Positions 9,442-41,414 of a stretch of DNA of 42,613 bases are shown in pieces (position 1 is the first letter of the stretch; each line of letters begins with the position of its first letter). A model generated the notes under the pieces. It worked only from the letters and a program-made list of their open reading frames with translations, was not told where the DNA came from and did no database searches. The translations under genes and the position numbers were made by a program. Source of the DNA: an uncultured Candidatus Saccharibacteria bacterium (GTDB lineage: Bacteria > Patescibacteriota > Saccharimonadia > Saccharimonadales > Saccharimonadaceae); contig CALMAK010000023.1 in assembly GCA_937859515.1 (NCBI GenBank), positions 1-42,613 on the forward strand. Direction: 5' to 3'.

Positions 9442-10353
9442 TCAGTCTGTGTGAAACTTTTCGTATGCTTCGCGCAGATGTTGATCAGTGACGTGCGTAT
9501 AGACCTGGGTCGTAGCAATGCTGCTATGGCCCAGCATGCTTTGCACACTGCGGATATCGGCACCGTTCATCAATAGATCAGTTGCAAAACTGTGGCGCAT
9601 TGTGTGAGGGCTGACATGTTTTGTAATACCCGCAAGACGGGCATATTTGCTTATCATCCGTTGAATACTGCGCGCACTGAGGCGACGATAGTCACCGGTT
9701 GTCGAGGCAATATTGTTGGTGCTGTAGCTAAGAAAGAGGGGCGGGAGGTTATCGAGGCGTGCAGACAGGTACTCATCAACATGGGTTGCTGCAGATTGGC
9801 TGACAAAGACAGGTCGGTCTTTCTGGCCCTTACCTCGAACCATGAATTCGCGACGTTTTGTGTTGATGTGGTCGCGGTTGAGGTTGACGAGCTCAGAAAC
9901 ACGAAGGCCACTTGAGAAGAGTAATTCAACGATTGCACGATCACGGAGGCCAGTCTCAGTTGAACAATCTATTTGTTCGATAAGTCGAGTAATTTCGTCA
10001 TAATGAAGGAACGTAACTTGCTTGCGGCTGACCTTTGGAAGGATAATTTTTTCAGGACTAAGAGACGAAATATCACGATTAGAAAGGTATCGCAAGAAAC
10101 CGCGTAGTGCCACGAGATGATAGTTTTGCGTGATAAGAGCAAGCTCTTCGCCTTGGTCGTTTATGTGGCGGTTCAGCCATATACGGTACTTACGAATTTG
10201 TTCTTGTGTAATTTTTTCGACAGGGATGTTACCGAGAAACTCTACGAGACGTTCGAGATATCGTTTGTAATTTTCGGCAGTCTTAGCCGAGCGACCACCT
10301 TCGATTTCGAGGTGTTCAACATAGTCAAGTATCATGTCGGACAAATCATGCAT
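9442..10353 (-). CDS. Tyrosine recombinase, XerC/XerD family
   Basis: An N-terminal SAM-like core-binding domain (about 1-90) and a catalytic domain with the full active site: R in SSGLRVSEL, K in RGKGQKDR, HTMRH (His and Arg), H in LGHSSIATTQ and the nucleophile Tyr in QVYTHVT. The family resolves chromosome dimers at dif or integrates elements. The size (about 300 residues) and simple layout favour a Xer protein over a phage integrase, but C versus D cannot be told. The start at 10353 (MHDLSDMI) is chosen because the -10 box at 10360-10365 ends 6 bases upstream; longer starts overlap the promoter. Confidence 0.92.
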   Translation of the reverse strand: MHDLSDMILDYVEHLEIEGGRSAKTAENYKRYLERLVEFLGNIPVEKITQEQIRKYRIWLNRHINDQGEELALITQNYHLVALRGFLRYLSNRDISSLSPEKIILPKVSRKQVTFLHYDEITRLIEQIDCSTETGLRDRAIVELLFSSGLRVSELVNLNRDHINTKRREFMVRGKGQKDRPVFVSQSAATHVDEYLSARLDNLPPLFLSYSTNNIASTTGDYRRLSARSIQRMISKYARLAGITKHVSPHTMRHSFATDLLMNGADIRSVQSMLGHSSIATTQVYTHVTDQHLREAYEKFHTD

Positions 10354-10359
10354 AACCAT

Positions 10360-10365
10360 AGTATA
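10360..10365 (-). promoter_or_regulatory. -10 box of the tyrosine recombinase gene (leaderless)
   Basis: On the minus strand this is TATACT, ending 6 bases before ATG 10353. It fits the leaderless pattern seen throughout the window. Confidence 0.5.
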
Positions 10366-10396
10366 CCGTAACACGTAGATGAGTACTCAAGTCTGA

Positions 10397-13276: not shown

Positions 13277-13491
13277 CGACCGGATTATCGCTTCGTTTCA
13301 CTTCGCTCCTCCGCTTGTTTGAAAAGAAAATAGCCTTCGGCTGTTTTCTTTTCTACACTGCGCTACGCGACCCGGCGATCTTAGGGCCAGCTAAAGCTGT
13401 CCCAGATCGCCGGTCCGAATCCTGCCAAAGGTATGCCATAGAAAATACCCACCAATTGGTGGGTACTTTCTATGGCGCGCTCGACCGGATT
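13277..13491 (-). repeat. tRNA-Asp-linked hairpin element (copy A)
   Basis: CGACCGGATT occurs inside tRNA-Asp (13482-13491) and again at 13277-13286, 205 bp away. At the distal copy the next 10 tRNA bases (CCGGCGATCT, 13372-13381) continue only after an 85-bp block (13287-13371). The tRNA 3' part is thus duplicated and split in the T-loop. The block has an A-rich hairpin (GAAAAGAAAA...TTTTCTTTTC) and resembles the block at 41321-41400. A second hairpin (CCGGCGATC/GATCGCCGG, 13372-13413) and an 18-bp terminator-like stem complete the unit. The whole has no ORF and resembles a tiny non-autonomous element at a tRNA 3' end. Confidence 0.6.
13436..13475 (-). terminator. Terminator hairpin downstream of tRNA-Asp
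   Basis: CCATAGAAAATACCCACC and GGTGGGTACTTTCTATGG form an 18-bp stem with an AATT loop and one mismatch. The stem begins at the tRNA CCA end, and the minus-strand 3' side holds a short T-run. Confidence 0.7.
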
Positions 13492-13548
13492 TGAACCGGC
13501 GATCTCCTCCGTGACAGGGAGGCGTGATAACCCCTTCACTACGAGCGC
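13473..13548 (-). tRNA. tRNA-Asp(GUC)
   Basis: On the minus strand GCGCTCG pairs with CGAGCGC. The anticodon stem-loop CTCC-CTGTCAC-GGAG region gives anticodon GTC, the T-arm is GCCGG-TTCAAAT-CCGGT, the discriminator is G and CCA is encoded (13473-13475). Confidence 0.95.
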
Positions 13549-16162: not shown

Positions 16163-16239
16163 TGGTGGGCGCGGAGGAGCTCGAATCCCCGACCTCGTCA
16201 ACGTCAATGACGCGCTCTAGCCAACTGAGCTACGCGCCC
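16163..16239 (-). tRNA. tRNA-Val(GAC)
   Basis: On the minus strand GGGCGCG pairs with CGCGCCC. The D-arm is TAGCTCAGTTGGCTAGAGC, the anticodon stem-loop CGTCA-TTGACGT-TGACG gives GAC, the T-arm is TCGGGGATTCGAGCTCCTCC-like, the discriminator is A and CCA is encoded. Confidence 0.94.
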
Positions 16240-40993: not shown

Positions 40994-40996
40994 TAT

Positions 40997-41032
40997 GGGG
41001 TGAACTAGGCGAAAGTCTAGGACACTCCACCA
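40997..41032 (+). other. tRNA-Ala-like minihelix with encoded CCA
   Basis: GGGGTG (40997-41002) pairs with CACTCC (41023-41028), then A and CCA follow. Inside, CTAG-gcgaaagt-CTAG forms a second helix. The third pair is G-U, as in tRNA-Ala. The 36-nt unit has an acceptor-like end but no D-arm or anticodon. It lies 3 bases after tRNA-Ala. Confidence 0.65.
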
Positions 41033-41053
41033 AGTATTTATTTATGGTAGCAG

Positions 41054-41144: not shown

Positions 41145-41221
41145 GGGCGCTTAGCTCAGTTGGCTAGAGCACTTCGTTTACACCGAAGGGGTCGGGGGTT
41201 CGAGCCCCTCAGCGCCCACCA
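41145..41221 (+). tRNA. tRNA-Val(UAC)
   Basis: GGGCGCT pairs with AGCGCCC. The anticodon loop TTTACAC gives TAC, the T-arm is GGGGG-TTCGAGC-CCCTC, and CCA is encoded. The 3' end is duplicated at 41401-41414. Confidence 0.96.
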
Positions 41222-41414
41222 AAAGTAAAAATCCATCTTTCGAGATGGATTTTTACTTTTGTATGGAGCGCTTTGGAACTCGAACCCCCGCTTTTGCAAA
41301 ACAAAAGTACGCAGGGTTCGGTGTAGCGAGTGAAATAAAGAAAAGCAGCGAAGCTATTTTTCTTTATAAGCGAGCGGAAGAGCGAAACGAAGTGAAGCGA
41401 CCCCTCAGCGCCCA
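41205..41414 (+). repeat. tRNA-Val-linked hairpin element (copy B)
   Basis: CCCCTCAGCGCCCA in tRNA-Val (41205-41218) recurs exactly at 41401-41414, 196 bp later. Just before the second copy, GGGTTCG (41314-41320) continues the T-arm, but an 80-bp block (41321-41400) splits it where the tRNA has only AG. Between them: the terminator stem, TATGG....CTTTGG, and a hairpin GCTTTTG/CAAAAG with outer arms CGAACCC/GGGTTCG. The 80-bp block contains AAAGAAAA...TTTTTCTTT and ends AGCGAAACGAAGTGAAGCGA, clearly related to the block of copy A. Confidence 0.65.
41221..41260 (+). terminator. Terminator after the tRNA-Ala/Ile/Val cluster
   Basis: AAAAGTAAAAATCCATCT-ttcg-AGATGGATTTTTACTTTT is an 18-bp perfect stem with a TTCG loop, starting at the CCA end. 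Confidence 0.85.

Follow-up and report, generated by a model that had tools for sequence, protein, structure and literature searches.

The units at tRNA-Asp and tRNA-Val

We analysed a stretch of 42,613 nucleotides of an uncultured Candidatus Saccharibacteria bacterium (GCA_937859515.1, contig CALMAK010000023.1, positions 1-42,613), hereafter the window; its genome is G000 in our comparisons. On the minus strand, an intact tRNA-Asp(gtc) gene is followed by a unit that repeats parts of it. In the sense of the tRNA, the features are:

13473-13548, minus strand: intact tRNA-Asp(gtc), the putative target and regenerated gene (ARAGORN, Rfam)
13435-13476, minus strand: terminator hairpin, immediately 3' of CCA (inverted repeat)
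13404-13422, minus strand: inverted copy (S') of the tRNA-Asp T-arm, GGATTCGGACCGGCGATCT on the minus strand (inverted repeat; family-wide test)
13384-13403, minus strand: hairpin H2, GGGACAGCTTTAGCTGGCCC
13372-13381, minus strand: copy of the T-stem 5' half, AGATCGCCGG, an exact match to tRNA-Asp
13287-13371, minus strand: 85-nt block (match to covariance model R1, 88.9 bits; alignment)
13277-13286, minus strand: copy of the T-stem 3' half, AATCCGGTCG, the displaced tRNA-Asp fragment

The preliminary description of this locus had reported a copy of the tRNA-Asp 3' end split in its T-loop by an 85-nt block at 13287-13371. We confirmed this: the 10-mers on the two sides, CGACCGGATT (13277-13286) and CCGGCGATCT (13372-13381), are the exact T-loop sides of tRNA-Asp(gtc), and in the copy the block takes the place of T-loop bases 54-57 (TGAA on the plus strand, TTCA on the minus strand). 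The displaced fragment is decayed beyond ~10 nt. The block consists, in this order, of a G-N-A-G tag, hairpin H3, GCGGAGGAG, hairpin H4, and a terminal GCGAT. The strong terminator hairpin is present as described (13435-13476, 21-bp arms, 95% complementary), and no ORF is confined to the unit (minimum 80 aa), in line with the claim that it has none. The composition of the unit was refined by adding a further copy of the tRNA 3' end and two parts that had been overlooked, the inverted T-arm copy (89% match across 19 nt) and the hairpin H2. Folded as DNA, the unit was far more stable than shuffled sequences (z -5.9). A putative tyrosine recombinase gene, XerC/D-like in sequence, lies 3 kb from the element (window 9442-10374).

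A related copy had been noted at 41205. Its host is tRNA-Val(tac) and its architecture is identical to that of the tRNA-Asp unit:

41145-41221, plus strand: tRNA-Val(tac), gene hosting the second copy (ARAGORN)
41222-41260, plus strand: terminator hairpin of tRNA-Val(tac)
41275-41291, plus strand: inverted copy of the tRNA-Val T-arm, GGAACTCGAACCCCCGC
41291-41307, plus strand: hairpin H2 of this unit, CTTTTGCAAAACAAAAG
41311-41320, plus strand: copy of the T-stem 5' half, GCAGGGTTCG
41321-41400, plus strand: block, the second copy of the window (match to R1, 96.2 bits)
41401-41414, plus strand: displaced T-stem 3' half and acceptor of tRNA-Val(tac), CCCCTCAGCGCCCA

This unit folded as DNA just slightly better than shuffled sequences (z -1.6). 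A third block copy was found by BLAST on contig C15 of the same genome, which has full units at four tRNAs (Asp, Val-tac, Ser-gct, and Arg-gcg) and remnants at two others (Pro-tgg and Ser-tga). An orphan copy on C15 (L003, 1400-1600) has tRNA-Gln flanks (ATCCCTCCATCCCAGCCAAGA) and no tRNA-Gln gene upstream; similar orphans occur in L033, L037, and L104. Between tRNA-Ala and tRNA-Ile (window 40994-41035), a second tRNA-Ala tail, CTCCACCA, lies ~40 bp further, past a hairpin (CTAGGCGAAAGTCTAG). A similar stretch is present in another genome (G124, L031), and this may be another small tRNA-end duplication.

Distribution of the block

The preliminary description had called for a search of the block in its own genome and in other Saccharibacteria. 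BLAST searches in 61 relatives found copies at several other tRNAs, and a covariance model built from nine blocks (R1) matched 93 of the 198 genomes of the taxonomic family, i.e., 34 of 61 genera, with up to 13 matches per genome. Across the class, 65 of 295 genomes had R1 matches, distributed over several families of the order; outside the class, the phylum sample gave the block in a single genome (G605). A scan of named genomes retrieved nine records, mostly titled Saccharibacteria or Patescibacteria. In Rfam 15, the gathering score was reached by the tRNA only, and relaxed thresholds added just chance matches. We found no description of such units in open-access papers. Copies from related genomes are not independent, and some tests compare related genomes, so the counts given here are not fully independent either. 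Some neighbours of copies are hidden at contig ends because the genomes are mostly draft assemblies.

Position relative to tRNA genes

We parsed 103 block copies for their position and listed the neighbours of each, nearly always a tRNA gene. A tRNA lies upstream on the same strand in 81 of them. The distance between the tRNA end and the block was 61-103 nt in 79 copies, with a mode of ~90, and these 79 tRNA-downstream copies span 24 anticodons. Among the remaining 22 copies, five are inverted beside a tRNA on the opposite strand, three interrupt D-loop copies found upstream of an intact tRNA-Ser (GGTTG/block/A, with slashes marking junctions; L013, L024, L062), one follows a tRNA cut off by the extracted stretch, and several others are at contig edges. 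There is no recognisable tRNA near ~7 of the 103 copies. The strand of the block is the sense strand of the tRNA in ~90% of the placed copies.

The order of the unit is intact tRNA, terminator, inverted T-arm 5' half, H2, T-stem 5' half, block, and T-stem 3' half with the acceptor. A terminator stands ahead of the unit in all 79 copies. The flanks are specific to the neighbouring tRNA: the 12 nt past the T-loop match it at 11-12 positions in 36 of 79 copies (0.6% for other tRNAs), and the 10-nt inverted copy matches it at 9-10 positions in 41 of 79 (2.3% for other tRNAs). We rejected the idea that the inverted copy spans the entire acceptor end: its tRNA specificity is limited to the T-stem 5' half, the acceptor portion scoring as it does with other tRNAs. 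The left junction is TTCG/GYGNAG with G57 tRNAs and usually GTCG/CGNAG with A57 tRNAs, whereas the right junction is GCGAT(A)/N59. A chance origin is excluded, since homologous copies from other genomes show the arrangement again (79 of 103), their flanks being specific to the adjacent tRNA.

Empty, filled, and decayed sites

As had been proposed, we searched relatives for empty sites; these were found, as were filled and decayed ones. The window itself contains an empty site:

16163-16239, minus strand: tRNA-Val(gac), empty site (alignment with congener G001, L200)

At this tRNA the congener is longer by ~178 bp, which comprise an inverted block together with an additional tRNA 3' end and an additional terminator, and the empty and filled sites are syntenic on both sides. 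At the orthologous tRNA-Asp site, the same congener has only a remnant, consisting of the T-stem 5' half and the first part of the block. The tRNA-Ser(tga) site of genus g18 is empty in three genomes (G202, G096, G153), holds an R1-type block in three (G018, G145, G183), and an unrelated block in two (G161, G196).

The distal fragment is intact through CCA in 24 of 79 copies, and a second terminator follows it in 13 of these 24, versus 7 of 54 decayed distal fragments. The two terminators are clearly duplicates in some copies (identical in L011, 84% in L091). The distal terminator is the orthologous one in G161 and G196 (0.93), whereas at tRNA-Val(gac) it is the proximal terminator that resembles that of the empty site. 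We therefore rejected the idea that the distal terminator is always the original one, and read this mixed origin as terminator duplication. An element-borne terminator was also rejected, the signal being weak (p=0.015).

Hairpins and folding

The arms of H3 pair at 8.6 of 10 positions within a copy and at 4.5 of 10 when swapped between copies, the former value being inflated by the selection of positions that pair. Of the 55 type-1 H4 motifs, 58% have two Watson-Crick inner pairs, versus 24% after swapping. The tag 5' of H3 is GNAG in 96 of 103 copies (GTAG 55, GGAG 16, GAAG 16, GCAG 9), and a recurrent mismatch in the H3 stem occurs in 64 of 103. Sequences of H2 recur across different tRNAs. 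GNA triloop tips are found in 30 of 77 H2 and 17 of 78 H3 hairpins, versus 2 of 78 of the terminators just upstream. Triloops of the GNA type form unusually stable DNA mini-hairpins (PMC4686876). The hairpin tips and the sense-strand bias fit folding as single-stranded DNA, without proving it.

Spread of the block and other occupants of the slot

For 11 blocks, the most similar one came from the same genome (2.1 expected, p=0.0002), and for 14 it came from a tRNA with the same anticodon (3.1 expected). In G213, the copies at tRNA-Tyr and tRNA-Asn have blocks 88% alike, with just 51% in the stretch of the inverted copy and H2. Judging from these similarities, the block itself is the unit of spread within a genome, without its tRNA flanks.

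The T-loop slot also holds other blocks (L011, L034, L040, L139). In genus g18 (L169, L170, L165), a different block (AGAAGCCTGTCAAATC...GCG) occupies it at tRNA-Ser(tga) and tRNA-Ser(gct); there is therefore at least one more family in this niche. Behind a tRNA-Ile of G209 (L139, 1081-2060), a third type of block sits in one slot and a RAYT-like gene (229 aa, with its own GGGGACGGTTCCCC palindromes) in the next. Other RAYT-like genes lie near tRNA-Met, tRNA-Glu, and tRNA-Gly (L149, L156, L159), between near-identical inverted palindromes; their proximity to tRNAs may or may not be due to chance.

Interpretation and alternatives

In this family we observe insertion-like polymorphism, a tRNA 3' end and a terminator in duplicate around the insert, a loop-specific position, tandem units, both orientations, spread of the block within genomes, and decay. 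From the sequences compared here, we consider it probable that the units are a family of gene-free, non-autonomous mobile hairpin elements in tRNA loops of Saccharibacteria, the tRNA being regenerated alongside. The preliminary description had suggested non-autonomous elements targeted to tRNA 3' ends. This is supported by the recurrence of the block, nearly always at a tRNA, and by the empty, filled, and decayed sites; the target can now be narrowed to the T-loop and sometimes the D-loop. A bolder version, in which gene-free elements of folded single-stranded DNA enter the T- or D-loops of many tRNAs and insertion remakes the tRNA end from the target, thereby giving target-specific flanks, would make them a new class of mobile DNA. 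We put this forward tentatively and regard it as rather doubtful.

In the mechanism we propose, the block of ~85 nt with H3 and H4 occupies the T-loop between positions 53-57 and 58-59, or less often the D-loop. Insertion would bring a second tRNA 3' end (positions 58-76) and a terminator, leaving the tRNA gene whole with a split displaced fragment beside it, and the intervening stretch would also gain the inverted T-arm copy and H2. The block may move as folded single-stranded DNA, joined at TYG/A in the loop by a recombinase acting in trans, of the HUH/Y1 type or another. Insertions without an intact tRNA would be lost, and those recovered would therefore carry a regenerated end. As a guess, two template switches during fold-back synthesis, at the terminator palindrome and H2, could give rise to the inverted copy. 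Deletion erodes the older copies. Several observations count against the mobile-element reading: we found no element that carries a transposase between such ends, the window genome has no match to Y1_Tnp or RVT_1, a simple insertion does not account for the inverted copy and H2, and ~7 of the 103 copies lack a recognisable tRNA nearby. Simple versions of the mechanism are disfavoured because H2 sequences recur across tRNAs and D-loop copies lack the inverted part. A reverse transcriptase, as in a retroelement or group II intron, was rejected as the driver since RVT_1 is absent from several carriers (no match in the window genome, G001, or G017-G019).

The units could be genuine REP/REPIN sequences, moved by a RAYT (Y1 HUH) transposase that the genome encodes. 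The GTAG-like tag before H3 and the recurrent stem mismatch recall hallmarks of REPs (PMC8266576), one RAYT gene occupies the same slot at tRNA-Ile (L139), and the block is found in 31 of the 37 genomes of the family sample with RAYT-like genes versus 62 of the 161 others, a comparison that ignores phylogeny. Yet, there is no Y1_Tnp match in the carrier genomes G000 (the window genome) and G019, nor in G001, and G125, a high-copy genome, is missing from the matches too. The RAYT genes examined are flanked by other palindromes, with no convincing pair of R1 blocks around 30 Y1 genes. The junctions (TTCG/G and GAT/N59) are not CT, and the copies are confined to tRNA loops. We regard this explanation as unlikely. 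Y1_Tnp as the driver was rejected, in spite of the genome-level association, given the carriers that lack it and the other palindromes flanking RAYT genes.

A regulatory element serving the host, in RNA or DNA, would account for the conserved spacing after the tRNA (~90 nt), the compensatory changes in H3 and H4, and the ability of the T-stem 5' half to pair with either the inverted copy or the 3' half. The inverted and split T-arms would then form alternative structures controlling tRNA termination or processing, with the block as a conserved domain. However, its presence is polymorphic among congeners and it is absent at most tRNAs; copies are eroded by deletion, are found in either orientation, and also lie in D-loop copies ahead of the gene. 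The slot can hold unrelated blocks instead, and the terminator is already ahead of the unit in every one of the 79 copies. Such a role appears quite improbable.

The T-loop crossover and a regenerated tRNA with a displaced fragment are the typical look of integrative islands (PMC4383910, PMC1762012), which also leave 3' and, rarely, 5' fragments. The units might thus be eroded remnants of phages or ICEs with a tyrosine integrase, the T-loop being attB and the displaced fragment attR. This is very improbable: the size is nearly constant (~200 bp), which erosion would not give, and the block is conserved in dozens of genera. We found no integrase, no longer version, no match in phage and plasmid collections, and no exact pattern match in IMG/VR viral contigs.

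In a purely local replication accident, the tRNA 3' end would be duplicated and inverted by fold-back synthesis at the palindrome of the terminator, without any mobile block. This is hardly credible: two template switches would give the order sense-palindrome-antisense-palindrome-sense, but unrelated tRNAs and genera could not share an 85-nt block without a common source, and D-loop copies lack the inverted part. Such an accident is refuted as a full explanation. Cruciform-driven duplication alone, the other suggestion of the preliminary description, leaves the shared block unexplained; fold-back synthesis may still be one step and explain the inverted copy.

Prokaryotic mobile DNA classically integrates into tRNA genes, the known cases being large islands with their own integrase. 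Mobile hairpin elements that lack genes, sit in the loops of at least 24 tRNA types, and leave the tRNA gene whole would be this strategy at its smallest. They would also pose a question open to testing, namely which enzyme moves them and how the tRNA end is copied. In the small genomes of Saccharibacteria, the units take up part of the space around tRNA genes, where they form a natural archive of insertions, tandem additions, and decay.

Comparison with known systems

In E. coli, the 178-bp repeats of tyrT (rtT RNA) are also tandem repeats downstream of a tRNA, each with a tRNA 3' end; they concern one locus and a 19-bp piece of the tRNA. We know of no split T-loop or inverted copy there. Miniature elements derived from IS200/IS605 resemble the units by insertion 3' of a short motif (TYG here), hairpins at both ends, and no evident short target duplication. 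Unlike them, the insert of the unit is flanked by a long duplicated tRNA 3' end and a terminator, and we found no IS with matching ends.

Islands and phages with tyrosine integrases, of which some use the T-loop (e.g., mycobacteriophage Ms6), share with the units the T-loop target, the regenerated tRNA, the displaced cognate fragment, tandem insertions, and mostly 3', rarely 5', fragments. They are kilobases long and encode an integrase, whereas the units have ~200 bp and neither an integrase nor any other gene; the 2-kb length filter of Islander would exclude them. Furthermore, the displaced fragment of the unit is itself split by the block, and there is an inverted T-arm copy.

REP/REPIN sequences with their RAYT (TnpA-REP) are likewise small extragenic hairpins with an irregular stem, no ORF, spread within genomes, and features of single-stranded DNA hairpin recognition; the GNAG of the unit, which is GTAG in 55 of 103 copies, may correspond to their GTAG-type tag. 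They require a RAYT gene flanked by the same repeat, whereas several genomes carrying the unit lack RAYT. They are cleaved at CT (or CA), the junctions of the unit being TTCG/GYG and GAT/N59, or GTCG/CG and GATA with A57 tRNAs. Finally, they are dispersed in many copies through extragenic space, whereas the units, which are longer and have two different hairpins, are restricted to tRNA loops (up to 13 per genome, ~90% at tRNA genes) and have flanks that copy the neighbouring tRNA. We read the unit as a variant of miniature mobile DNA that is neither a REP nor a tRNA island, because it fails defining tests of both; it has the appearance of a minimal mobile element, so far undescribed, by which the targeted gene is rebuilt.
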